Of a stretch of DNA of 64,000 bases, positions 3,004-35,879 are shown one piece after another. The notes below the pieces were generated by a model, which was given only the letters and a program-made list of their open reading frames with translations, was not told the origin of the DNA and did not search any database. Position 1 is the first letter of the stretch. Every line of letters starts with the position of its first letter. The translations under genes and the position numbers were made by a program. Origin of the DNA: Alteromonadaceae bacterium (GTDB lineage: Bacteria; Pseudomonadota; Gammaproteobacteria; Enterobacterales; Alteromonadaceae); the NCBI GenBank assembly GCA_014872785.1, contig WKFJ01000036.1, forward strand, positions 124,001 through 188,000. The letters are read 5' to 3'.

Positions 3004-3750
3004 TTACTCAACACTATATTGTTCTCCGTAGTACAGCGAGTGTATCTCCTGATATTTCCCGTGTTTAATCAACGTTCCGTCTTTCAATAAGACGGCTTGG
3101 TCACAAATGCTACGCAATAATTCAACATCGTGGCTAACTATCAGAATAGTAATTCCCTGACGCGCTAAATTCTGCAGTCTTTTTATTGATTTTTCTCTAA
3201 ATGAAATGTCACTTATAGACAGCACTTCATCAACAATCAAAATATCTCTGTTTAGGTGAGTAGCAACAGCAAAGGCCAATCTTGCAAACATACCACTGGA
3301 ATACCTTTTCATCGGAGTATCGAGATACTCGGTAATCTCGGCATATGTTACGATTTCTTCGAACTTTTTTACTAATTCTCTTCTGCCAATCCCCAATAGA
3401 TTGCCATTTAAATATATATTCTCTCTGCCCGTCAGTTCAGGATGAAACCCCACACCAGCTTCTAACATTGGAGACACAGTTCCCCTCAGTGTGATGCTAC
3501 CCTCTGTAGGATCGCTTATTTCACTGAGTAATCGTAGAAGTGTGGACTTTCCTGAACCATTGTCACCCATTACTGCGACAATTGAGCCCTTATCAATGTC
3601 GAGGTTGATGTTTTTAATTGCCCACTTGTCCTTTTTTTTAAGGAATTGAAGTTTAGCAAGGAATCGAGAAAAGATATTTTTCTCATCAAATAAGAGAGAA
3701 TCGGTTGCGCGAATTCTGTATTTCTTCCCAAGGTTATTTATTTCAATAAT
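3004..3750 (-). CDS. wzt: Wzt/TagH-type ABC transporter ATPase for polysaccharide export
   Basis: Continuous coding can be read from about 3780 to 3004 (about 249 residues from 3750). It has Walker A GDNGSGKST, signature YSSGMFARLAFAVA, Walker B ILIVDEVLSI and the H-loop SHD. The extension before Walker A (IIEINNLGKKYRI) matches the usual N-terminus of the family, so starting at the internal Met at 3570 would lose essential sequence. No ATG, GTG or TTG lies in frame upstream; the nearest ATG (3761) is one base out of frame across an A7 run (3756-3750). Either ATT 3750 is used, slippage restores the frame, or there is an indel. There is no C-terminal glycan-binding domain. It pairs with the permease gene just upstream. 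Confidence 0.85.
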   Translation of the reverse strand: MIEINNLGKKYRIRATDSLLFDEKNIFSRFLAKLQFLKKKDKWAIKNINLDIDKGSIVAVMGDNGSGKSTLLRLLSEISDPTEGSITLRGTVSPMLEAGVGFHPELTGRENIYLNGNLLGIGRRELVKKFEEIVTYAEITEYLDTPMKRYSSGMFARLAFAVATHLNRDILIVDEVLSISDISFREKSIKRLQNLARQGITILIVSHDVELLRSICDQAVLLKDGTLIKHGKYQEIHSLYYGEQYSVE

Positions 3751-3776
3751 TTTTTTGTCATCGTTTCTAGCGCGCG

Positions 3777-4598
3777 TTAAATAATATCGGCAAACTTTCG
3801 TTCATTGATTGCGAAAATATACAACCCAGAAAGCAGGATAAATAACAAAGAAAAGCCTCCCGCTAGCAAGCAAAATAGCTCTGGACGAAATTGTTCGCCT
3901 AATAGACAAAATCTCATTGTTTCGATAATGGCGACAAGAGGGTTAAGGCTATAAATTAATTGCCACTGTTCAGGTACGCTATTGAGGGTAAAAGCAACTG
4001 GACTTACAAATAGCGCAAGTCTCAAGAGATAAGGAACTAGAGCCCCTACATCGCGTTTAAAAACATTTAACGTGCCTAACCACAAACTTAGTGCTAGGTT
4101 AAGGAGAGCAATTGATAAAAACACCAGAGGAAGAAGCAAAAATGTAACTAAAAAAGGCATATCTAGATACATCATAAATCCGGCAAATACGAGTAAATTG
4201 ATGAAAGGTCCAGGTGAGTTTTTTAGTGCTGCATTAATTAACAAAATAACTCTTGGAAAGTTTGCCCTAATAATCAGATCTCTGTCATCCACTAAGCAAG
4301 TACAACCTTTTGTAACCGCACCAGAAAAGAAATCCCAGCAAATTAGAGCACTTAAGGCGATTAAAATATAGGGTACACCATAGTCAGGAAAGTGCCCCAT
4401 GTAATCAAACACAAAAATAATACTGTACGCCATCAAAATGGGTTGTATTGCAACCCATGCAACTCCAAGCACCGTTTGTTTATAGGTCACGAGCAAGTCT
4501 CGCTTCATAATATGCACAAGTAGCTCTCTTGCTTCCCATATCGTAGAAGGAGCAATGCGATGAAAGTGATTAGTGTTACGATGTATGTGCTTTTCCAT
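3777..4598 (-). CDS. wzm: Wzm-type ABC-2 polysaccharide export permease
   Basis: 273 residues, an ABC-2 family integral membrane protein. It has a cytoplasmic N-terminal amphipathic stretch (REDLLVHI-like, WEARELLVHIMKRDLLVTYKQ region), the family's GVAWVAIQP segment and about six hydrophobic helices. The C-terminus FAINERKFADII is typical of Wzm/KpsM/TagG. With the neighbouring ATPase it would export a lipid-linked glycan across the inner membrane. It lies 17 bases after the GT2-like gene and 26 bases before the ATPase, in one apparent operon. Confidence 0.9.
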   Translation of the reverse strand: MEKHIHRNTNHFHRIAPSTIWEARELLVHIMKRDLLVTYKQTVLGVAWVAIQPILMAYSIIFVFDYMGHFPDYGVPYILIALSALICWDFFSGAVTKGCTCLVDDRDLIIRANFPRVILLINAALKNSPGPFINLLVFAGFMMYLDMPFLVTFLLLPLVFLSIALLNLALSLWLGTLNVFKRDVGALVPYLLRLALFVSPVAFTLNSVPEQWQLIYSLNPLVAIIETMRFCLLGEQFRPELFCLLAGGFSLLFILLSGLYIFAINERKFADII

Positions 4599-4615: not shown

Positions 4616-5671
4616 TTATAAAAAAGGCTTTCCCGCAGCTCTTTTAGTAAGGTACCGAAGGTACCTGATAGTGTTGTATCCCAAACCTTTCAGCGACATT
4701 ATGAGAATTGACAGCAGAAGTCTTGTTCGTGCCGCAGATGTTGTTAAAACTTTTAGGTGAGATTCGTCTATATAACTGGCTCTAGTGGTGGATTCATTTA
4801 ACTTCGTGTTCTCGAGTCCCCAATTCGAGCCATTTGGATTGAGACTGGGTTTATCAAACGATTTCGCCCAGGCCGGATTTAATTTTCGATGGCTGTGTCT
4901 AAATTTCAGCCCCGTTGACATGTGTTCAAGATGAAAAAAATGATAACCGAACTTCTTTCCCCAGTTTACAATAGGATATTGGGAAATGAGCCTCGTCGCG
5001 AGATCGACATCCATAAACCAATAATAGATGAGCCTTTCGTCATAGCCCCCAACCTTTTCCCAAAGGTTCCTGTGCATCATGAGAATTCCAACGGCTGACG
5101 CCCAGTAACAATATGGTAGCTCTTCACTGAGGTTTACATGAGCGTAATTAGTGATGGCCAAGTCTAGGTCATTCAAGCTGGGTTTCTGTTCGACGAAGTT
5201 ATACGGCAACTGTTTGCGTGCAGCAAACATATATGTATTTTCAATATCAAAATCGGCCTGAGATTTCCCTTCGATTAAACCAAAAAAGCAGTTCAAAAAA
5301 TCAATGGTCGTCAATGTGTCCTGATCTATTCGAGCGATATATTGACCTCTACTTCTTCTGGCGGCAACATTGAGAGCATATACTTCTCCAAACGCACTAT
5401 CTTTTTGTAACTCTCCGGCTAGACCTAATGGAACTTCAATAAACCGTGTCAGATTCGAAGCTTGCTTGGTTAGCTTGATCACATCCGAAATCGGGACTTT
5501 ACTGCCCCAGTCCGTGACTACAATTTCTACTTGCGTTTGCCTTCCGATTGAATAGATTTTTTGACATACATAATTGATGCTAGTCGCCAAACGCCACATG
5601 GGGTCTCCCATGTAATTATCGTTTCGCGAACAAATGATCAATGACAGCTGTACTGCAGGCGAAGTCAACAT
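4616..5671 (-). CDS. Family 2-like glycosyltransferase
   Basis: 351 residues. It opens with LSLIICSRNDN, the usual first strand of a GT-A fold, followed by EIVVTDWGS, a DxD-type IDQD in ARIDQDTL, and a later WFMDVDLATRL acceptor-side ED-like motif. No membrane helices are evident, so it is probably cytoplasmic. The donor sugar cannot be named from sequence. It is transcribed between the oligosaccharyltransferase gene and wzm, so a role in building the exported glycan is likely. Confidence 0.8.
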   Translation of the reverse strand: MLTSPAVQLSLIICSRNDNYMGDPMWRLATSINYVCQKIYSIGRQTQVEIVVTDWGSKVPISDVIKLTKQASNLTRFIEVPLGLAGELQKDSAFGEVYALNVAARRSRGQYIARIDQDTLTTIDFLNCFFGLIEGKSQADFDIENTYMFAARKQLPYNFVEQKPSLNDLDLAITNYAHVNLSEELPYCYWASAVGILMMHRNLWEKVGGYDERLIYYWFMDVDLATRLISQYPIVNWGKKFGYHFFHLEHMSTGLKFRHSHRKLNPAWAKSFDKPSLNPNGSNWGLENTKLNESTTRASYIDESHLKVLTTSAARTRLLLSILIMSLKGLGYNTIRYLRYLTKRAAGKPFL

Positions 5672-5726: not shown

Positions 5727-6152
5727 TCAACGTTGGAACTCTAGTTTTGGGTATGTGACTAATTTCCTGTCTCGAAAGGTCGGCTCTGGCACATTGAGCG
5801 TTGCATGCAATTTAAATTCATCACTTTTTGCAGCTTGCACCCACAATTGATAAGGCCCTTGTGCCACCACGTCGATTTCTGGCAACTCCGAATCCGTTGA
5901 ATATGGGACATTAAAGCGGAAGTGGCCATTTTCATCCGCGGTAATAGAGCGTTTGTAAGTAAACTCTCTTTTGGAAGTCTTACTCCGTAGAGCTAATCTT
6001 GCCTCGATAATATCGCCTGGCTGTGCAGTTCCCTTTATCAATGTGCCTTCAACAATTTCAAATATTTTTACCGATGAGCTTATTCGACCATTGTACAGAA
6101 AGCCATTGCCAAGGGTGACAACATCAGCATTCACCCATTTTTTATAGCGCAT
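5727..6152 (-). CDS. C-terminal domain of the STT3/AglB-like oligosaccharyltransferase, separated by a TGA
   Basis: 141 residues from ATG 6152. The segment SSVKIFEIVEGTLIKG, then PGDIIEARLALRSK, REFTYKRS, ENGHFRFNVPYSTD and VAQGPYQLWV, matches the extracytoplasmic beta-rich tail of archaeal AglB/STT3 proteins. This ORF is in the same frame as the 659-residue gene ending at 6225. Only one TGA (6227-6225) and 24 sense codons lie between them, with no further stop. It is therefore most likely the detached end of the same protein (about 825 residues if read through), not an independent gene. Independent translation from 6152 is possible but would give a domain without signal peptide or membrane anchor. 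Confidence 0.7.
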   Translation of the reverse strand: MRYKKWVNADVVTLGNGFLYNGRISSSVKIFEIVEGTLIKGTAQPGDIIEARLALRSKTSKREFTYKRSITADENGHFRFNVPYSTDSELPEIDVVAQGPYQLWVQAAKSDEFKLHATLNVPEPTFRDRKLVTYPKLEFQR

Positions 6153-6224
6153 ATGATCTTCTGCAGAATTTATTGGGAAGACTTTTGGAATATACTCAAA
6201 ATTTGTAGTTTGTGACCCTTCGAG

Positions 6225-8204
6225 TCACTGCAAAAAGCCACTACTGTAGGTAAGGTGTTGGCTTTCAAAAACCAACCGATAGTGGCTCAGCTCAATACCA
6301 TCATTACCGTATAGACGTGAAACCATAGAATTTTGGAAAGTCTCGTCCAACCGGATATGCGGGATAAACTGACCATTCACATTCAAAACCCCCGTCTTTT
6401 TAGCTTTTATCGGTGAATCTGTGAATTTTGACTTCGCGTTTATGAGCGGCCCGTAGGTATCTTTATCAACAATCACGTATCGAATGGTTTTTGTATCAGT
6501 TTGGCGTTCTGACAATATCTCGAATGATTCATCTTCACTTTGAGCAAGCATCCATCTCGCAGTGTACGCTGAAGGTACGCTACTCCACACAGGAATTCGA
6601 TTTCCGTGGGAAGCCACAATATTGCCAAAATCCCACGCAACCATTATCCCGTAGTCATCAATATTTTGATTTTGCTCATTGGTCTTTTGTTTACTACTCG
6701 ATAATGGTGTTCTAGCAGGCTGTGGAGAGTTTTCTTCAAACCAAGCGAGTGATTCATACCAAGCTTCAGAGTATGTGGTCATTGCAGTCAATTTATGCCG
6801 GTCAATCCATGGCGATGATACAAATTGAAACGGATAAACCGGAAGTGCCAACACTCCGGCAAACAAAGTAAAAACTCCTATCTTAATGTGCTTGTTCTTA
6901 CTCAAATTCACACCAAAAGCATTGGGTTTGGCTATCAACCAGAGCGAGTACAAGGCAAGAGCAGCGCATACTGATACAAAAGCGGGTAAATAATAACCAA
7001 AATCACTTGAACTCCACCAAAGGGCGCACCACATGGCCAAAAACATGATTGGCACCATTGCCCCAAGTGGTAGTAAACTTCTTAACACTGAAAAAGGAAC
7101 GACAATCATTCCTATGGCAGCCAGAACGCCCACAATACCAAATTGTCCTAGGTATAATGCTAAATTAACTTCACTTTCTTCATGAATAAGATTGGTTGAC
7201 TTGGCGAGTACAAGAGAAGTTAAGAACCTTCCTACCTCAGTGAAATAAGCAAGCATAAACAAAATCGCGGCTGCCAACACGGTAACACACACAGAGATAT
7301 GCTGTGCCAGCCGCGGCTGAGTATAATGCTTGAATATCATAGTGTATATCCAGGCACCGAGAATAAGAGCACTAGCCCCTTGAGTTATTAGTGTATTGCG
7401 AGTAGTTGCTGTTATTATCAACAGCAAAACTATTCCATAACGAGCGTTTGTGATGGTTAACAGAGTTACATCGTCTCTACGAAATACAGCAAAGTTCCAG
7501 CAGATTAGAATCGTAATACATACAATAAGTAGAAAGATCTCGGCTCCTTGCCAAGTGAAAATGAGCAAAATTAAAGGCAGGACGGAATATAACGCTATTT
7601 TCCAATTATGGAATGTGGACTTATTACCAGATGGCTTCATTAATGTCACTAACCCAATCGCTATTGCCAATGATAAACAATATTCCGCAGCATGATGATC
7701 AACAAAGCCTAGAACGCCACGATCTAGCGTTTTACCTGGGTATAACAAAAAAAATGTGATTGCAATAAGTGCAACGGATGTATTGGAAAGCAGTCGCACT
7801 AATAAGAAAGTCAATAAATAGGTGATAACAGTTAAAACCGGTGCCCCCCATGCGGCAGTCATTGCTATGTCATTGATTGACGCATTCTTGCCAAAAAGCG
7901 ATATAGCGATAGTGGATATTGCCAAACCGAATAAACCAGAAGCTTCATTTGGACGTGGTTCAGGGAAACTTGCGCCTATGTCCAAACGTTGAATCTCGGG
8001 ATAATTTTCCACAGTATATTTTGCGTGGCGTAAATGAAAAAACGAATCCACTCCTAGCAATTTAATCTGACTCTGGTCGAGAAAAATGTGGTCATAGGCT
8101 GGCCAGACACGAGTGCTCAATGCTGCAAAAAGTATAAGTAGAAGGGCAGAAAGCTTTAGAAGTATTATTGGCTGTCTATTAGTGAGTTGCGTTGCTTTAT
8201 TCAT
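6225..8204 (-). CDS. STT3/AglB/PglB-like oligosaccharyltransferase (ends early at in-frame TGA)
   Basis: 659 residues. About a dozen hydrophobic helices are followed by a C-terminal soluble part. GVDSFFHLR (Asp53) fits the first acidic loop motif of STT3, DHHAAE (169-174) the second, and LIHEESE (340-345) lies where the SVSE/TIxE loop is expected. AWDFG (523-527) corresponds to WWDYG. These enzymes transfer lipid-linked oligosaccharide to Asn (or otherwise to protein) on the outer face of the membrane. Overall the sequence looks more like archaeal AglB than Campylobacter PglB. The ORF stops just after SHYRLVFES, before the tail domain found in frame downstream, so it is probably truncated or read through. 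It heads an operon with GT2, wzm, wzt and an epimerase. Confidence 0.85.
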   Translation of the reverse strand: MNKATQLTNRQPIILLKLSALLLILFAALSTRVWPAYDHIFLDQSQIKLLGVDSFFHLRHAKYTVENYPEIQRLDIGASFPEPRPNEASGLFGLAISTIAISLFGKNASINDIAMTAAWGAPVLTVITYLLTFLLVRLLSNTSVALIAITFFLLYPGKTLDRGVLGFVDHHAAEYCLSLAIAIGLVTLMKPSGNKSTFHNWKIALYSVLPLILLIFTWQGAEIFLLIVCITILICWNFAVFRRDDVTLLTITNARYGIVLLLIITATTRNTLITQGASALILGAWIYTMIFKHYTQPRLAQHISVCVTVLAAAILFMLAYFTEVGRFLTSLVLAKSTNLIHEESEVNLALYLGQFGIVGVLAAIGMIVVPFSVLRSLLPLGAMVPIMFLAMWCALWWSSSDFGYYLPAFVSVCAALALYSLWLIAKPNAFGVNLSKNKHIKIGVFTLFAGVLALPVYPFQFVSSPWIDRHKLTAMTTYSEAWYESLAWFEENSPQPARTPLSSSKQKTNEQNQNIDDYGIMVAWDFGNIVASHGNRIPVWSSVPSAYTARWMLAQSEDESFEILSERQTDTKTIRYVIVDKDTYGPLINAKSKFTDSPIKAKKTGVLNVNGQFIPHIRLDETFQNSMVSRLYGNDGIELSHYRLVFESQHLTYSSGFLQ

Positions 8205-17294: not shown

Positions 17295-18413
17295 ATGAAT
17301 AAAAAACTTTCTCGCTTAATAGAACAAGGGCGTTTCTCAAAGCACTCTTTCAGACGATGGCTACCATTATTAAAAGATTACTATTTTTTAAAACGTAGCA
17401 ACGAAGAAATCCCGTGGACTCAAATAAAAGAGCGAGCCAAACATGCTGCATCGCGAATAGGATCTGATTTCTATTCAGCGGCATTAAATAAACAGCAGAA
17501 GTACTTAGAGGTTCGCTTCGATTGTCACCCTGGCTCGGCTTTTTTTGCTCTCTATGTGATGGTTTTACAGCAACTACGATTTGCAGAGCGTCACGGATTG
17601 ATTCCGATTGTCAACATAGACTATCGCCACAATTACTATTTTGACACGAATAAAAATATCAACTTTTGGGAAAACTATTTTGAGCCTATTGGTGGCCGAC
17701 TCAGCACAGAGATAAAAGATTTACATAGGGATGACCCGAAGAGCGTTACCTTTTTAGATCCGGAACTTCAAAAAAGCTTATATTTAGGTGAAGGTGATGA
17801 CATACCAATCGAATATAATGAAAGAACTCAGCTTTGGTGGCAACGTCAACGTCAAATGGGTGCTGAATTGACTGCAAAATACGTGCGAATTAAGCCTCAT
17901 ATACTAGCTGAAATGGAACAGTTTTACTCTAATCACATGAAGGAAAAAAGGGTACTAGGTGTTCACCTTCGAGGAACAGAAAAAATAGTGAAACACGACG
18001 GAACGCTTCATGATGTTGACCCATTTTTTCTTGTCATCAATCAACCTGCAGAATATTTTCCTGTAGTAGACTGCTACCTGACAAAATACCCAGAAAGTTT
18101 GATATTTGTCGCTACGGATCAAACTCAATTTCTCGACGAGTTTAAAGAGCGATATGGAGATCGAGTACTTTTCACCTCAGCCTGTCGCTCAAGTGATGAG
18201 CAAGGCGTTTTTAAACGATCTGGCAAAGGATACCTGTCAGGAGTAGAAGTTTTGGTTGATTGTCTTTTGTTGGCAAAATGTGATTTCCTCATTAAATGCC
18301 AATCAAACGTCGGGGAAGTTGCAGTGTTCTTTAATCCGGAACTACCGGTGATTGATGTGATGTACCCAGTCGAACTGCAAATGGAGCAATGGGGACTCGA
18401 TTACCGCATGTAA
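17295..18413 (+). CDS. Fucosyltransferase-superfamily glycosyltransferase (HxRGTE variant), copy 3
   Basis: 372 residues. It shares the paralog blocks PGSAFFALYVMVLQQLRFAE, NFWENYFEPIGG, WWQRQRQMG, VLGVHLRGTEK, LIFVATDQTQFL, YGDRVLF and SGVEVLVDCLLLAKCDF. The donor motif is HLRGTE, where the other copies have HIRGTD. It has a longer N-terminal basic region (about 45 residues) than copy 1. The role is probably the same family chemistry with another acceptor. Confidence 0.78.
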   Translation: MNKKLSRLIEQGRFSKHSFRRWLPLLKDYYFLKRSNEEIPWTQIKERAKHAASRIGSDFYSAALNKQQKYLEVRFDCHPGSAFFALYVMVLQQLRFAERHGLIPIVNIDYRHNYYFDTNKNINFWENYFEPIGGRLSTEIKDLHRDDPKSVTFLDPELQKSLYLGEGDDIPIEYNERTQLWWQRQRQMGAELTAKYVRIKPHILAEMEQFYSNHMKEKRVLGVHLRGTEKIVKHDGTLHDVDPFFLVINQPAEYFPVVDCYLTKYPESLIFVATDQTQFLDEFKERYGDRVLFTSACRSSDEQGVFKRSGKGYLSGVEVLVDCLLLAKCDFLIKCQSNVGEVAVFFNPELPVIDVMYPVELQMEQWGLDYRM

Positions 18414-22202: not shown

Positions 22203-24857
22203 ATGGTTCTTGAAACAGAGGCCGGCACTCTATCAGAATCGGAGTTACGGGCACTTGTGCCGCAACTTCAGCTGATCACTGAGCGTTATAAGCGTGCCGA
22301 GCGTATACAAAAAGCGCTATTCGATATCTCGGAGCTTGCCAGCTCTGTGGGTGATTTGCCGCGTCTTTATACTGCCCTCCACGACATCATTGCCGGTTTC
22401 ACGCACGCGCGAAACTTTTACGTTGCGTTTTATAATGATTCCGAAAGTATGTTGGATTTTGTTTATTTTATTGACGAGTTTGACGAGTTAACCGTTTCTG
22501 AAATCCCAACAGCTGATCTTAAAGACGGTATTACGGGATACGTGCTCACCAGTGGCAACCACTTATTCCTAACCAAAGAAAATTTTGATCAACGCGTGCG
22601 CGAGCTGGGTGTTAAAAAACTTGGCACCAATCCAGTTGATTGGATTGGTGTTCCTCTTAAAAGAGGTAATCGTGTTATCGGTGTGATGGCCGTGCAAAGT
22701 TACGATGAGCAGGTAAGATACTCTGATGCTGATTTGGATGTGTTGCTCTTTGTATCACAGCATATCGTAACCACTGTTGATCGCGTTAAAAACCGTGAGT
22801 TAACTGAGCGATTAATACGTCAGCGTACTAAACAACTGCGTGATATTAACAACGAACTTCAGGAAGAAATTCAAGAACGCCAAAAAATCGAAGCTTTACA
22901 GCAGGCTTTATTCGAGATATCGGAGCTTTCAGCAACAATGGAAGGGGATATTCCTGACTTTTACGCCAGCCTCCACGATGTCCTTGCTCGCTTAATACAC
23001 GCTCCAAACTGTTATATTGCAACTCTAGATAAAGAACGTGAATTCTTAGACTTTCCCTATTGTTGTGATGAGATTTATCCTAAAGCCGTTCCTCGAGAGA
23101 TGGGAAGGGGCTTGACTGAATATGTTTTGCGTCATGGGACTGCAGAATTAATTGATGCGGATAAAGCCAAAGAACTCGCCGAAGAAAGAGAGCTGTGCGA
23201 AAAAATTGCATCTAACATGCGAGATTCTGAGAATTCCTGGATAGGTGCGCCACTTATCGTAGATGGCGAAGTATCAGGGGTTATCGCTATTCAGGCGTAC
23301 AACGGTAATTATCACTATGACTTTAAAGATCTAGAACTACTGCGCTTTGTTTCGCATCACATCGCAGTCGCGTTGGAACGAAAGAAAGCGGCAGAAGCAA
23401 TACATGTTTATAACCAAGAATTGAGCTCTCGTGTTCAAGAGCGTACTCGAGAACTGCATCAAACCAACGCGCATTTGAAGCAACAAATTGAAGAGCGTAA
23501 ACAGATAGAGCTGAAACTCATCCATGACGCCCACCATGATGCTTTAACGGGATTGCCGAATCGCGCTATGTTTATGAACCGGCTTGAACTTGCGTTGGCC
23601 AATAAACAGCGTTTCCCTGAAAACAACTTTGCAGTATTGTTTATTGATTTAGACAGATTCAAACTGATTAATGACACCTTGGGGCATCACGCAGGTGATT
23701 GCTTCTTAGTGGAAGTGAGTAAACGAATCACTGAGTGTATTAGAGGCCATGATCTATTGGCACGTTTGGGTGGTGATGAGTTTATCATTTTGTTGGACAA
23801 CTTCGAAAAAGAAGAAGATGTCGAAGACGTATCCAATAGAATTCTAGAAAAGTTAGGCCAGTCATTCAGCTTAGAAGGTTCTGAAATGTATTCTGGCGGC
23901 AGTATCGGTATTGCTTATCTAGAACAATGGTACGACAACGCGGATGAAATTATTCGCGATGCCGATGCAGCGATGTACCAGGCTAAGTCAATGGGACGTG
24001 GTCGCTATGTGCTATTTGACCAGAGCATGCGCGAGCGATTACTTGAAGAATTAGAGCTAGAAAACGAATTCAGAAGAACATTGAAAGCCAAAGCGTTTAA
24101 TTGTTTGTTCCAGCCGGTTATAAACTTAGGTACAAGCGAACACATATATCATGAATGCTATGTTCGCTGGGTGCATTCAACAATCGGTAAGATTAAAAAA
24201 GAACAATTTTTAAAGATTGCTGAACATAGCGGTTTAACCATGGAAATGGACAACTTCATGGTTCAAAAAGCCTGTGAGATGTTATTACAATGGCAAGAGT
24301 CCGAAGGTATAGAGAAAGATTATAAGATTGCCATTAACCTTTCTGTGAACCACCTGTACCAGAGCAAGTTAGTCAATGAGTTGATCGAAACAATATTAGC
24401 GTCCGGTGCAGAGCCGCAAAAGCTAGTGATTGAAATAGATGAAACCCTACTTAACCGCAAAACTGAGCAAGTGCTGACAGCAATAAAAATGCTTAAGAAT
24501 GCTGGCGTAACGCTGGTGTTAGACAATTTCGGCAATGGCTTGGCTTCGCTTAACTACCTTTGCTCATACCCATTCGATTACGTCAAAATCGACCGTAAAT
24601 TTGTGAAGTCTTTACCTCAGTCCAAAGAAAACCTGAAGCTGATTCAATCGGTTCAACAAATTTCGGAGCATTTTGGTTTTGAACTTATTGCTGAAGGTAT
24701 AGAAAACGAAGCTCAGTGTAAGTCTTTGATTAGCGTTGGTTGCACGTTAGGTCAGGGGCACTTTCTGACGGAACAGCAGAGCTCTGACAAAGAACCAAAG
24801 GATGATGAACAGCCTGCCAACCATCCTGAGCTAGAACTCGCACCACTTACCGCGTAA
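22203..24857 (+). CDS. GAF-GAF-GGDEF-EAL cyclic-di-GMP signalling protein
   Basis: 884 residues. Two related GAF domains (about 40-205 and 235-400) are each followed by a coiled-coil linker (ERLIRQRTKQLRDI, RVQERTRELHQTN). A GGDEF domain follows with intact RLGGDEF (about 521-527) and DALTGLPNR. The EAL-type domain keeps Glu in HECYVRW, Asn in INLS, Lys in VKIDRKFV and AEGIEN. But DDFGTG reads DNFGNG near residue 773, losing one metal-ligand Asp. It is therefore probably a diguanylate cyclase with a weakened or regulatory EAL domain. There are no membrane helices. Confidence 0.88.
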   Translation: MVLETEAGTLSESELRALVPQLQLITERYKRAERIQKALFDISELASSVGDLPRLYTALHDIIAGFTHARNFYVAFYNDSESMLDFVYFIDEFDELTVSEIPTADLKDGITGYVLTSGNHLFLTKENFDQRVRELGVKKLGTNPVDWIGVPLKRGNRVIGVMAVQSYDEQVRYSDADLDVLLFVSQHIVTTVDRVKNRELTERLIRQRTKQLRDINNELQEEIQERQKIEALQQALFEISELSATMEGDIPDFYASLHDVLARLIHAPNCYIATLDKEREFLDFPYCCDEIYPKAVPREMGRGLTEYVLRHGTAELIDADKAKELAEERELCEKIASNMRDSENSWIGAPLIVDGEVSGVIAIQAYNGNYHYDFKDLELLRFVSHHIAVALERKKAAEAIHVYNQELSSRVQERTRELHQTNAHLKQQIEERKQIELKLIHDAHHDALTGLPNRAMFMNRLELALANKQRFPENNFAVLFIDLDRFKLINDTLGHHAGDCFLVEVSKRITECIRGHDLLARLGGDEFIILLDNFEKEEDVEDVSNRILEKLGQSFSLEGSEMYSGGSIGIAYLEQWYDNADEIIRDADAAMYQAKSMGRGRYVLFDQSMRERLLEELELENEFRRTLKAKAFNCLFQPVINLGTSEHIYHECYVRWVHSTIGKIKKEQFLKIAEHSGLTMEMDNFMVQKACEMLLQWQESEGIEKDYKIAINLSVNHLYQSKLVNELIETILASGAEPQKLVIEIDETLLNRKTEQVLTAIKMLKNAGVTLVLDNFGNGLASLNYLCSYPFDYVKIDRKFVKSLPQSKENLKLIQSVQQISEHFGFELIAEGIENEAQCKSLISVGCTLGQGHFLTEQQSSDKEPKDDEQPANHPELELAPLTA

Positions 24858-34213: not shown

Positions 34214-35879
34214 CAGGTCTCTCCATCATTTTATCGTTTGCTGTGTTAGGTGGCACTATTGGCCATACATTATCTAAAGAAGAAAGTTTTACATGTAGAA
34301 GCATTGCCGCAGGAGACTGCAAAAATTCACCTATTTTAGTTCGCAGGTCTTCAGGCTTAGATAAAACATCTGCCGAAACGCCAAAGGCTTGCGCAACGCT
34401 ACTGAATTCAGGGTTATCAGACAGATCTGTTTCACTGTAACGCTCTTCATGGAACAGCTCCTGCCATTGTTTCACCATGCCTAGACGTTGGTTGTCTAGT
34501 ACCAATATTTTCACGGGAATGTTATACCGCTTGATAGTGGCTAATTCTTGAATATTCATCATAAACGAGCCGTCACCACACACTGCGATTACAGGTTTGT
34601 TTGGATTAGCTAATTTCGCTCCTATTGCCGCTGGCATCCCGAAGCCCATGGTGCCTAAGCCGCCGCTAGTTAAATGATGGGTAGGGGCGGCAAAATTCAT
34701 ATGCTGTGCGACCCACATCTGGTGCTGTCCAACGTCGGCTGTAACTATTGTGTCCGATGGCATCGTTTCACTGATGTAATGCAACAGTGATTCGGCATCA
34801 ACCGACTCACGTCCTTCAATGGCATAACGTTTTTCTGATTTTTCTTGTAAAGAATTTATATTCTTCTTCCATTCTTGGTTTGGTTCCACCGTTTTCAGTT
34901 GGCTAAATACGGGTTTTACATCACAGGCAATGGCCACGTCTGCAAAACGTCGTTTGTGCAATTCAGCTGCATCTACGTCGATATGGATAACTTTTGCTAA
35001 AGGCGCGAATTCGTCCAACTTACCTGTTGCTCTGTCGTCCAAGCGAGCACCAACAACAATGAGTAAATCACATTGTTGAACTGCATGGTTGGCACAAGAC
35101 CAACCATGCATGCCCAACATACCTAGGTTTAAATCGTAGTCTTTGGGAATCGTGCCGAGCCCTTTTAAGGTAGATACCGCGGGTAAACCAGATTCCTCTA
35201 AAAACTCTCTGAACTCTTCAATGGCGTCTGCCATGGAAACCCCGCCGCCAACGTATAAAAGTGGCTTTTGGGCGGTTTCCATCAACTGATTTGCTCGTTC
35301 TATTTGCGCGAACACTTCAGTGCTTAAATCAGCTGATTCTGTTTCTTGGTCTGATAATTCAACTAAGTGGATATCCGCGGGGCATTCAGTCAACAGAATG
35401 TCTTTTGGCACATCTACTAACACCGGACCAGGTCGGCCTTCTTGCGCTATTTGATAGGCTTTGGCGAGTTTAGATGGCAGTTCAGCAATATCCTGAACAA
35501 TCATACTGTGTTTCGTGACACTTAAAGAGAGCCCTAAGACATCGACTTCTTGAAATGCATCGCTGCCCATTGCCGGTCTGGCGACTTGGCCGGTGATAAC
35601 GAGTAGTGGTACCGAGTCGAGCTTTGCGTCAGCAATACTTGTGAGTAAATTGGTCGCCCCTGGCCCAGAAGTGCCGAAGCATACACCGACTTGATTTGTG
35701 CTGCGGGCATGCCCAATTGCCGCGAAAGCAGCACCTTGTTCATGTCGCGCTAGGTAATGGGTTATGTTCGAATCCAATAAAGCATCGTATAGAGGCATTA
35801 TCGCACCACCAGGATAACCATAGGCGTTGGTGCAGCCTTGCTGCTCTAAAAACTTAAGTATGTACAGTGCGCCATTAAT
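34197..35879 (-). CDS. ilvG: Acetolactate synthase II large subunit, apparent ATT start
   Basis: About 560 residues. Homology requires the start near 35879: INGALYILKFLEQQGC then AYGYPGGAIMPLYDALL, the E. coli protein beginning MNGAQ. The in-frame codon at that position is ATT, with AAAGAG spaced ideally upstream and an in-frame TAA at 35894. The first ATG (35798) would delete the YPGGAI region. Signatures are RHEQGA (catalytic Glu), SGPGATNLLT, and the thiamine-diphosphate motif GDGSFMMNIQELAT. It is the first enzyme gene of the operon behind the leader and attenuator. Confidence 0.93.
   Translation of the reverse strand: MNGALYILKFLEQQGCTNAYGYPGGAIMPLYDALLDSNITHYLARHEQGAAFAAIGHARSTNQVGVCFGTSGPGATNLLTSIADAKLDSVPLLVITGQVARPAMGSDAFQEVDVLGLSLSVTKHSMIVQDIAELPSKLAKAYQIAQEGRPGPVLVDVPKDILLTECPADIHLVELSDQETESADLSTEVFAQIERANQLMETAQKPLLYVGGGVSMADAIEEFREFLEESGLPAVSTLKGLGTIPKDYDLNLGMLGMHGWSCANHAVQQCDLLIVVGARLDDRATGKLDEFAPLAKVIHIDVDAAELHKRRFADVAIACDVKPVFSQLKTVEPNQEWKKNINSLQEKSEKRYAIEGRESVDAESLLHYISETMPSDTIVTADVGQHQMWVAQHMNFAAPTHHLTSGGLGTMGFGMPAAIGAKLANPNKPVIAVCGDGSFMMNIQELATIKRYNIPVKILVLDNQRLGMVKQWQELFHEERYSETDLSDNPEFSSVAQAFGVSADVLSKPEDLRTKIGEFLQSPAAMLLHVKLSSLDNVWPIVPPNTANDKMMERPDAIPS

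Follow-up and report, generated by a model that had tools for sequence, protein, structure and literature searches.

One oligosaccharyltransferase gene of this Alteromonadaceae bacterium carries one in-frame stop. The gene lies in the window (the whole 64,000-nucleotide stretch analyzed here, within contig C44 of a 4.66-Mb draft genome of 66 contigs that is 93.86% complete) and appears to be an otherwise intact AglB-long-type gene, aglB, in an accessory surface-glycan island. We judge the chance to be about even that the TGA is a real, recent lesion private to this genome, namely, a nonsense mutation that arose in a variable hairpin through a single substitution or the insertion of one triplet, and we lean slightly toward this reading over a consensus error. 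The evidence comes from the gene itself, its predicted structure, its orthologs, its neighbors, comparable lesions in this and two sister genomes, and the tRNAs that could decode UGA.

A single TGA interrupts an AglB-type reading frame

On the minus strand, an open reading frame from 8204 to 6225 encodes 659 amino acids and ends in a TGA at 6227-6225. Beyond this stop, the same frame remains open for 165 codons to a second TGA at 5729-5727, with no other stop or frame change inside; only 2 of 20,000 base-shuffled tails stay open in this way. The original prediction was that a single in-frame TGA splits an oligosaccharyltransferase and that 24 open codons lead on, without a frameshift, into a conserved C-terminal tail of the AglB type. 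This description holds: 24 codons separate the TGA from the next ATG (6152), and Pfam models matched above their cut-offs on both sides of the stop, AglB_core-like before it (E = 1.9e-7) and AglB_L1 after it (E = 2.1e-16). The open reading frame, the Pfam matches, alignments, and a predicted structural model divide the gene (all minus strand) into a head of 659 codons (6228..8204), which comprises the membrane region together with the larger part of the catalytic core unit; the TGA itself (6225..6227), which is codon 660; and a tail of 165 codons plus the terminal TGA (5727..6224), which holds AglB_L1 and, as predicted, the last core strand (within about residues 704-718). The tail aligns end to end with an intact 825-residue ortholog in Planctobacterium marinum K7 (G001).

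The WWDYG-motif site of the read-through protein is occupied by AWDFG (residues 523-527), a variant form; the P. marinum K7 ortholog has AWDYG, and G031 and G098 have SWEFG. The membrane region contains the acidic motifs GVD (51-53) and DHH (169-171), which we take to be the equivalents of the published DXD motifs, and residues D53, D169, H170, and H171 are invariant across a 16-row alignment. Region 617-632 is conserved (NSM..RLY), and the alignment picks out no clear DK pair (Ser/Thr pocket) in it. The NCBIfam profile archaeo_STT3 (TIGR04154) matches residues 20-798 of the read-through protein at 288.8 bits, against a curated cut-off of 450, so that the protein is not a member of that family by this rule.

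The 659-residue product is predicted to lack the last core strand

The predicted model of the read-through protein (mean pLDDT 76.9, pTM 0.79) found its best structural matches in AglB, STT3, and PglB, with Z scores of 23.4 to 34.0 for full-length oligosaccharyltransferase chains. As modeled, the read-through product is an oligosaccharyltransferase fold of the STT3/AglB/PglB type, with a multi-spanning N terminus and a core unit. Archaeoglobus fulgidus AglB-L (3waj, 5gmy, and 7e9s) matches over nearly its whole length (3waj: Z = 34.0, 690 residues, 3.6 Å, 18% identity); the present enzyme differs in being bacterial and in being split by a TGA. Strand 651-660 of the model ends at the stop, beside a loop with pLDDT below 50.

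We considered whether the stop marks the end of the core unit, which would leave a short-form enzyme. AglB-S1 and AglB-S2 of A. fulgidus consist of the core unit alone, which is taken as indispensable (PMC3703281), and the sequence matches of the present protein to them end at its residues 647 and 645, respectively; these end points were the basis of the short-form idea. Structural alignment led us to reject it, as the core extends to 718-720. The cores of AglB-S1 and AglB-S2 (3vgp and 3vu0) align with the model (3vu0: model residues 476-718, Z = 19.2, 145 residues, 2.2 Å), AglB-S1 reaching model residue 720 and AglB-S2 residue 718, and the strand at that position is absent from the 659-residue product. 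More broadly, the last aligned residue lies at model position 718 or beyond in all 26 oligosaccharyltransferase entries (AglB-L, AglB-S1, AglB-S2, PglB, and STT3) among the 50 rows of the match table, which reports alignment end points only. Since even the shortest AglBs keep the core to 718-720, truncation at 659 removes a last core strand that they share. By the predicted model, then, the head ending at 659 does not contain a complete core unit like that of a functional AglB-S-like short form, and the truncated protein is probably either inactive or unstable.

The stop is private among available orthologs

The gene is rare: a search of 395 Alteromonadaceae genomes found it in 4, including the source genome, and the other 3 copies are intact, with open reading frames of 825, 806, and 796 residues. 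Two stops flagged in the G031 ortholog, one TGA and one TAA, do not interrupt its 806 open codons: the TAA is terminal, and the TGA adjoins it. P. marinum K7 is the nearest genome with aglB and belongs to the same genus by its kinship label, while the other two relatives are both metagenome assembled and have aglB in different surroundings. Among 394 genomes of the order, 5 besides the source genome gave short weak matches alone (E = 2e-4 to 7e-4); 369 genomes of the class gave three real distant matches (G848, G1052, and G1066), none with a stop inside, and one short weak match. The original prediction had named orthologs that end at this position, with the tail as a separate gene, as evidence against its own reading. 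The nearest orthologs speak the other way: all three close orthologs are full length, and none ends naturally at the stop position or has a separate tail gene. A tail strand of the form K/R-x-F/Y-E is recognizable in 13 of 17 comparator rows, including those of the three close orthologs; for the 4 rows in which it is not visible (L052, L056, L057, and L060), the open reading frame chosen did not align there. On these alignments, the stop is private to the source genome among the available orthologs.

The column of the TGA aligns with Leu (CTT in P. marinum K7 and TTG in G031), and a Leu stands at or beside the stop site in all three close orthologs. The local sequence FLQ-[TGA]-L-E-G resembles FLQ-L-S-G and FLQ-L-F-G in two relatives, and the third has FLQ-L-F-E. 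The TGA may thus be a substitution at a Leu codon or an extra triplet placed before the FLQ-L-x-G-like stretch, the loop being too variable in length to separate the two. A short inverted repeat of 7 pairs (GTGACTC-GAA-GGGTCAC, 6212..6228, minus strand) overlaps the TGA and might weakly hint at template switching; it is possibly a chance occurrence, as about 2% of positions have an inverted repeat as strong (15 of 796 gene codons; 184 and 157 of 9,130 window positions).

The same site bears on whether the TGA could encode selenocysteine. The codon is the appropriate one and the short hairpin begins at it, but the relatives have Leu rather than Cys at this site, and a bacterial SECIS element would need a longer hairpin. 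Moreover, no tRNA-Sec exceeded the cut-off in the source genome, P. marinum K7, or the sister genome G002 (0 of 3, with 150 of 313 to 424 candidates scored in each), in a search that placed 5 of 14 control genomes above the cut-off. We regard a selenocysteine codon as extremely improbable.

The tail has not decayed

Because dS is saturated in most comparisons, we used pN, pS, and relative distances to compare constraint on the two parts of the gene. Relative to P. marinum K7, pN is 0.34 in the tail and 0.34 in the whole head, and pS is 0.81 and 0.76, respectively. Measured from the outgroup G031, this tail has diverged no further than the P. marinum K7 tail (dN of 0.61 and 0.63, respectively). 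Identity to P. marinum K7 is 50% in the tail and 66% in the soluble part of the head (471-659), and it is lowest (25%) over the short stretch of 24 codons that directly follows the stop. Constraint on the tail is about equal to that on the whole head; the lesion would thus be recent, false, or bypassed or suppressed. An old pseudogene was rejected on two counts, the equal pN of tail and whole head and the 165 codons free of further stops or frame changes. From these comparisons, the absence of decay in the tail would fit only a recent or a false lesion.

A possible lesion in an accessory glycan island

Synteny with P. marinum K7 extends over the island that contains aglB (epimerase, ABC ATPase, ABC permease, glycosyltransferase, aglB, and nearby glycosyltransferases). 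The next gene, a GT2-like glycosyltransferase (4616..5671, minus strand), and an ABC-2 type export permease (3777..4598, minus strand) are intact and syntenic by Pfam and synteny. The open frame of the ABC export ATPase (3004..3780, minus strand) differs from its counterpart in P. marinum K7, which has an in-frame ATG: here an A7 run (3756-3750) puts the likely ATG (3761-3759) out of frame. The P. marinum K7 island has an isolated TGA of its own, in a GT11-like gene (L017, about 19124, minus strand) whose copy in the window (17295-18413) is intact. Lesions in aglB and the ATPase within one accessory cluster, together with this P. marinum TGA, are as expected of surface-glycan loci. Since aglB is accessory (4 of 395 genomes), its loss is tolerable.

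Isolated stops elsewhere: mutation or consensus error

To place the aglB stop among other lesions, we compared 553 kb of the source genome with 540 kb of G002 (188 ortholog hits, 68,117 amino acids) and the island with P. marinum K7 (11 hits). Across these 188 + 11 hits, the source genome has four convincing isolated internal stops (TGA, TAA, TAG, and TGA) and no flagged frame change. Besides the aglB TGA, and with protein names read from the sequences by eye, these are a TAA near codon 101 of a PLP-dependent, panP-like decarboxylase, between flanks 85-90% identical (L063:18124-18126, minus strand; C44:226126); a TAG near codon 134 of 552 in an RsbU-like response regulator with a phosphatase-like output (L092:16869-16871, minus strand; C60:116871); and a TGA near codon 27 of 163 in a MOSC-like small protein (L085:17676-17678, plus strand; C44:97676). 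Two further lesions affect starts: that of the ABC ATPase at the A run and that of ilvG, where ATG has become ATT (window 35877-35879, minus strand). Both sister genomes have ATG at this ilvG site, which lies just after a terminator-like leader.

Some flagged rows were set aside from these counts. Seven stops were flagged against G002, of which four were spurious (one open reading frame extension at the ilvC start); against P. marinum K7, three of five were of the same ilvC-start kind, and the other two were the panP-like and aglB stops. Another stop in the island, close to residue 22 of an epimerase extension, lies upstream and was not counted. Weak upstream extensions likewise accounted for two of three flagged stops in G002 and one of three in P. 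marinum K7. The start survey flagged nine rows against G002 and four against P. marinum K7, most of which have a Met slightly further in or repeat known stops; ilvG and the ATPase alone look like lost starts.

The sister genomes have comparable lesions. The 77 hits of P. marinum K7 contain 2 convincing internal stops, one of them near a C terminus, and the 190 hits of G002 contain 1 stop and 1 frame change. One P. marinum K7 stop is a TAG at residue 851 of 884 in a GGDEF/EAL-like gene (L067, about 4614, plus strand) that is intact in the window (22203-24857). In G002, which is complete, a peptidase-like gene (G002:C1, about 2047145; L105) has a TGA at a conserved Trp position. Over the three genomes, four of seven convincing isolated stops are TGA, one of them at a conserved Trp; these numbers are small.

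Low-quality reads are reported mainly to raise internal stops and so create spurious pseudogenes (PMC11017572). The aglB stop could be such a consensus or base-call error, the true sequence having a sense codon (or lacking the extra triplet) and encoding one full-length enzyme. The source genome resembles the reported cases, being a draft in which four isolated internal stops and no frame changes were found, and its division into 66 contigs at 93.86% completeness is in keeping with this reading. It is also odd for a living cell that two of the six lesions affect core biosynthesis (the panP-like decarboxylase and ilvG). Against an error, the stop rate of the source genome is not clearly above that of its sisters; of the six lesions, two fall within a single accessory gene cluster, and one is an A-run indel. 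We therefore give an error a considerable chance, though one short of even. Of the three readings originally offered for the stop, the fresh nonsense mutation and the base-call error both agree with a private stop, an undecayed tail, and other isolated stops in the genome; the third, programmed readthrough, is taken up below.

Readthrough of the UGA

Readthrough deserves consideration on several grounds. The original prediction noted that the stop is followed by C, a context favoring readthrough, and UGA followed by C is indeed described as a weak terminator in bacteria (PMC5289835). The context is not special in this gene, however, since the terminal aglB stop (5729-5727) is TGAC too. UGA ends 58 of 415 mechanical open reading frames of the source genome, yet accounts for four of the seven convincing isolated stops, again in small numbers. 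The constraint on the tail is likewise compatible with readthrough.

One candidate decoder is tRNA-Trp. In both tRNA-Trp genes of the source genome (C25:17622-17695 and C53:115435-115508; L149 and L150), the anticodon stem is 4 bp long (G27.A43), and position 24 is A. The substitution G24A is reportedly the classic Hirsh UGA suppressor in E. coli. Unpinned tRNA-Trp (C27A), when overexpressed in E. coli, raises UGA readthrough about 2.5-fold, and genomes with only unpinned tRNA-Trp use fewer UGA stops in 13 of 19 orders (both PMC13092985); the same study cites an earlier in vitro test in which C27A alone gave no readthrough. The tRNA-Trp of the source genome is likewise unpinned at the top of the anticodon stem. 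It differs in also having A24, a feature that the study sets apart, and in that the trait is family-wide; the main text of the study does not name Alteromonad- taxa. A purine-purine mismatch pattern at the stem top occurs in 370 of 395 family genomes, with G27.A43 in all matches listed, and A24 is present in all 36 tRNA-Trp loci read (6 from the genus and the 30 best ranked, not a random sample). We thus rejected the idea that this tRNA-Trp form is a local adaptation. Being family-wide, the form does not explain a stop in one genome, but it could soften the effect of that stop.

Other routes to recoding gave no signal. None of at least 43 tRNA matches, representing 30 kinds of anticodon, has a stop-reading anticodon, including UCA, with 150 of 238 candidates scored in an assembly 93.86% complete; this list is incomplete, since tRNA-Ile is absent from it. 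The RNA downstream of the stop folds no better than shuffled sequences (z = -0.44 and 0.37). Belinky et al. 2021 (PMC7918605) interpret in-frame stops in bacterial genes under purifying selection as readthrough events that are frequent and mostly short-lived, and the present case is alike in being a single stop between constrained flanks. It differs in that the filtered set of that study needs a stop in at least two species, whereas this one occurs in one genome.

Tolerated or programmed readthrough by tRNA-Trp, yielding forms of 659 and 825 amino acids, nevertheless appears unlikely to us. The stop is shared by none of the three close orthologs, the tRNA-Trp form is family-wide with no adaptation here, C27A alone was inactive in vitro (as cited in PMC13092985), the downstream fold is unremarkable, and the terminal stop has the same context; in the predicted model, the short form lacks one core strand, and the isolated TAA and TAG in the source genome need another cause. 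The proposal that the stop programs useful short and long forms thus finds no backing in the orthologs, in any decoding element found within the scope of the searches, or in the predicted loss of a core strand. A broader version, in which unpinned A24 tRNA-Trp leaves UGA leaky throughout Alteromonadaceae, so that premature UGA is tolerated and the weak UGAC gives mostly truncated and some full-length enzyme, with glycosylation tuned down rather than lost, seems to us similarly doubtful.

A separately translated tail could in principle complete the enzyme without any readthrough. The longest tail open reading frame with its own ATG, and the sole conceivable separate tail product, encodes 141 amino acids (5727..6152, minus strand); it holds the whole AglB_L1 match, and a weak purine stretch lies ahead of its ATG at 6152. 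Yet the tail has no signal peptide or membrane helix by eye and would stay in the cytoplasm, and the globular domain of oligosaccharyltransferases lies outside the cytoplasm. Such a product would also leave out strand 669-678, and no comparator was seen with this kind of split. We consider a true gene split highly improbable.

Proposed effect of the stop

Under a private nonsense mutation, the reading to which we lean, ribosomes would mostly stop after residue 659. The short product would retain the WDFG (WWDYG-like) motif, the membrane region, and the larger part of the core; the last core strand and AglB_L1 would be missing, and low-level misreading of UGA by tRNA-Trp could yield a little full-length enzyme. 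Of this explanation, the sequence itself, the private status of the stop among the orthologs available, the constraint on the tail, and the placement of the stop in the predicted fold are observed, whereas we infer the reality of the base, the inactivity of the short product, and any leakiness. The stop probably cripples the enzyme rather than giving two useful forms.

As a lone in-frame stop in one draft genome, the aglB TGA is more likely to be a private mutation or an error than an instance of recoding. A limited literature search found no paper on a bacterial AglB oligosaccharyltransferase in Alteromonas, and AglB-type enzymes in Alteromonadaceae may be little described. If UGA does prove leaky in Alteromonadaceae, annotated truncations that end in UGA would have to be re-examined across this large marine family.
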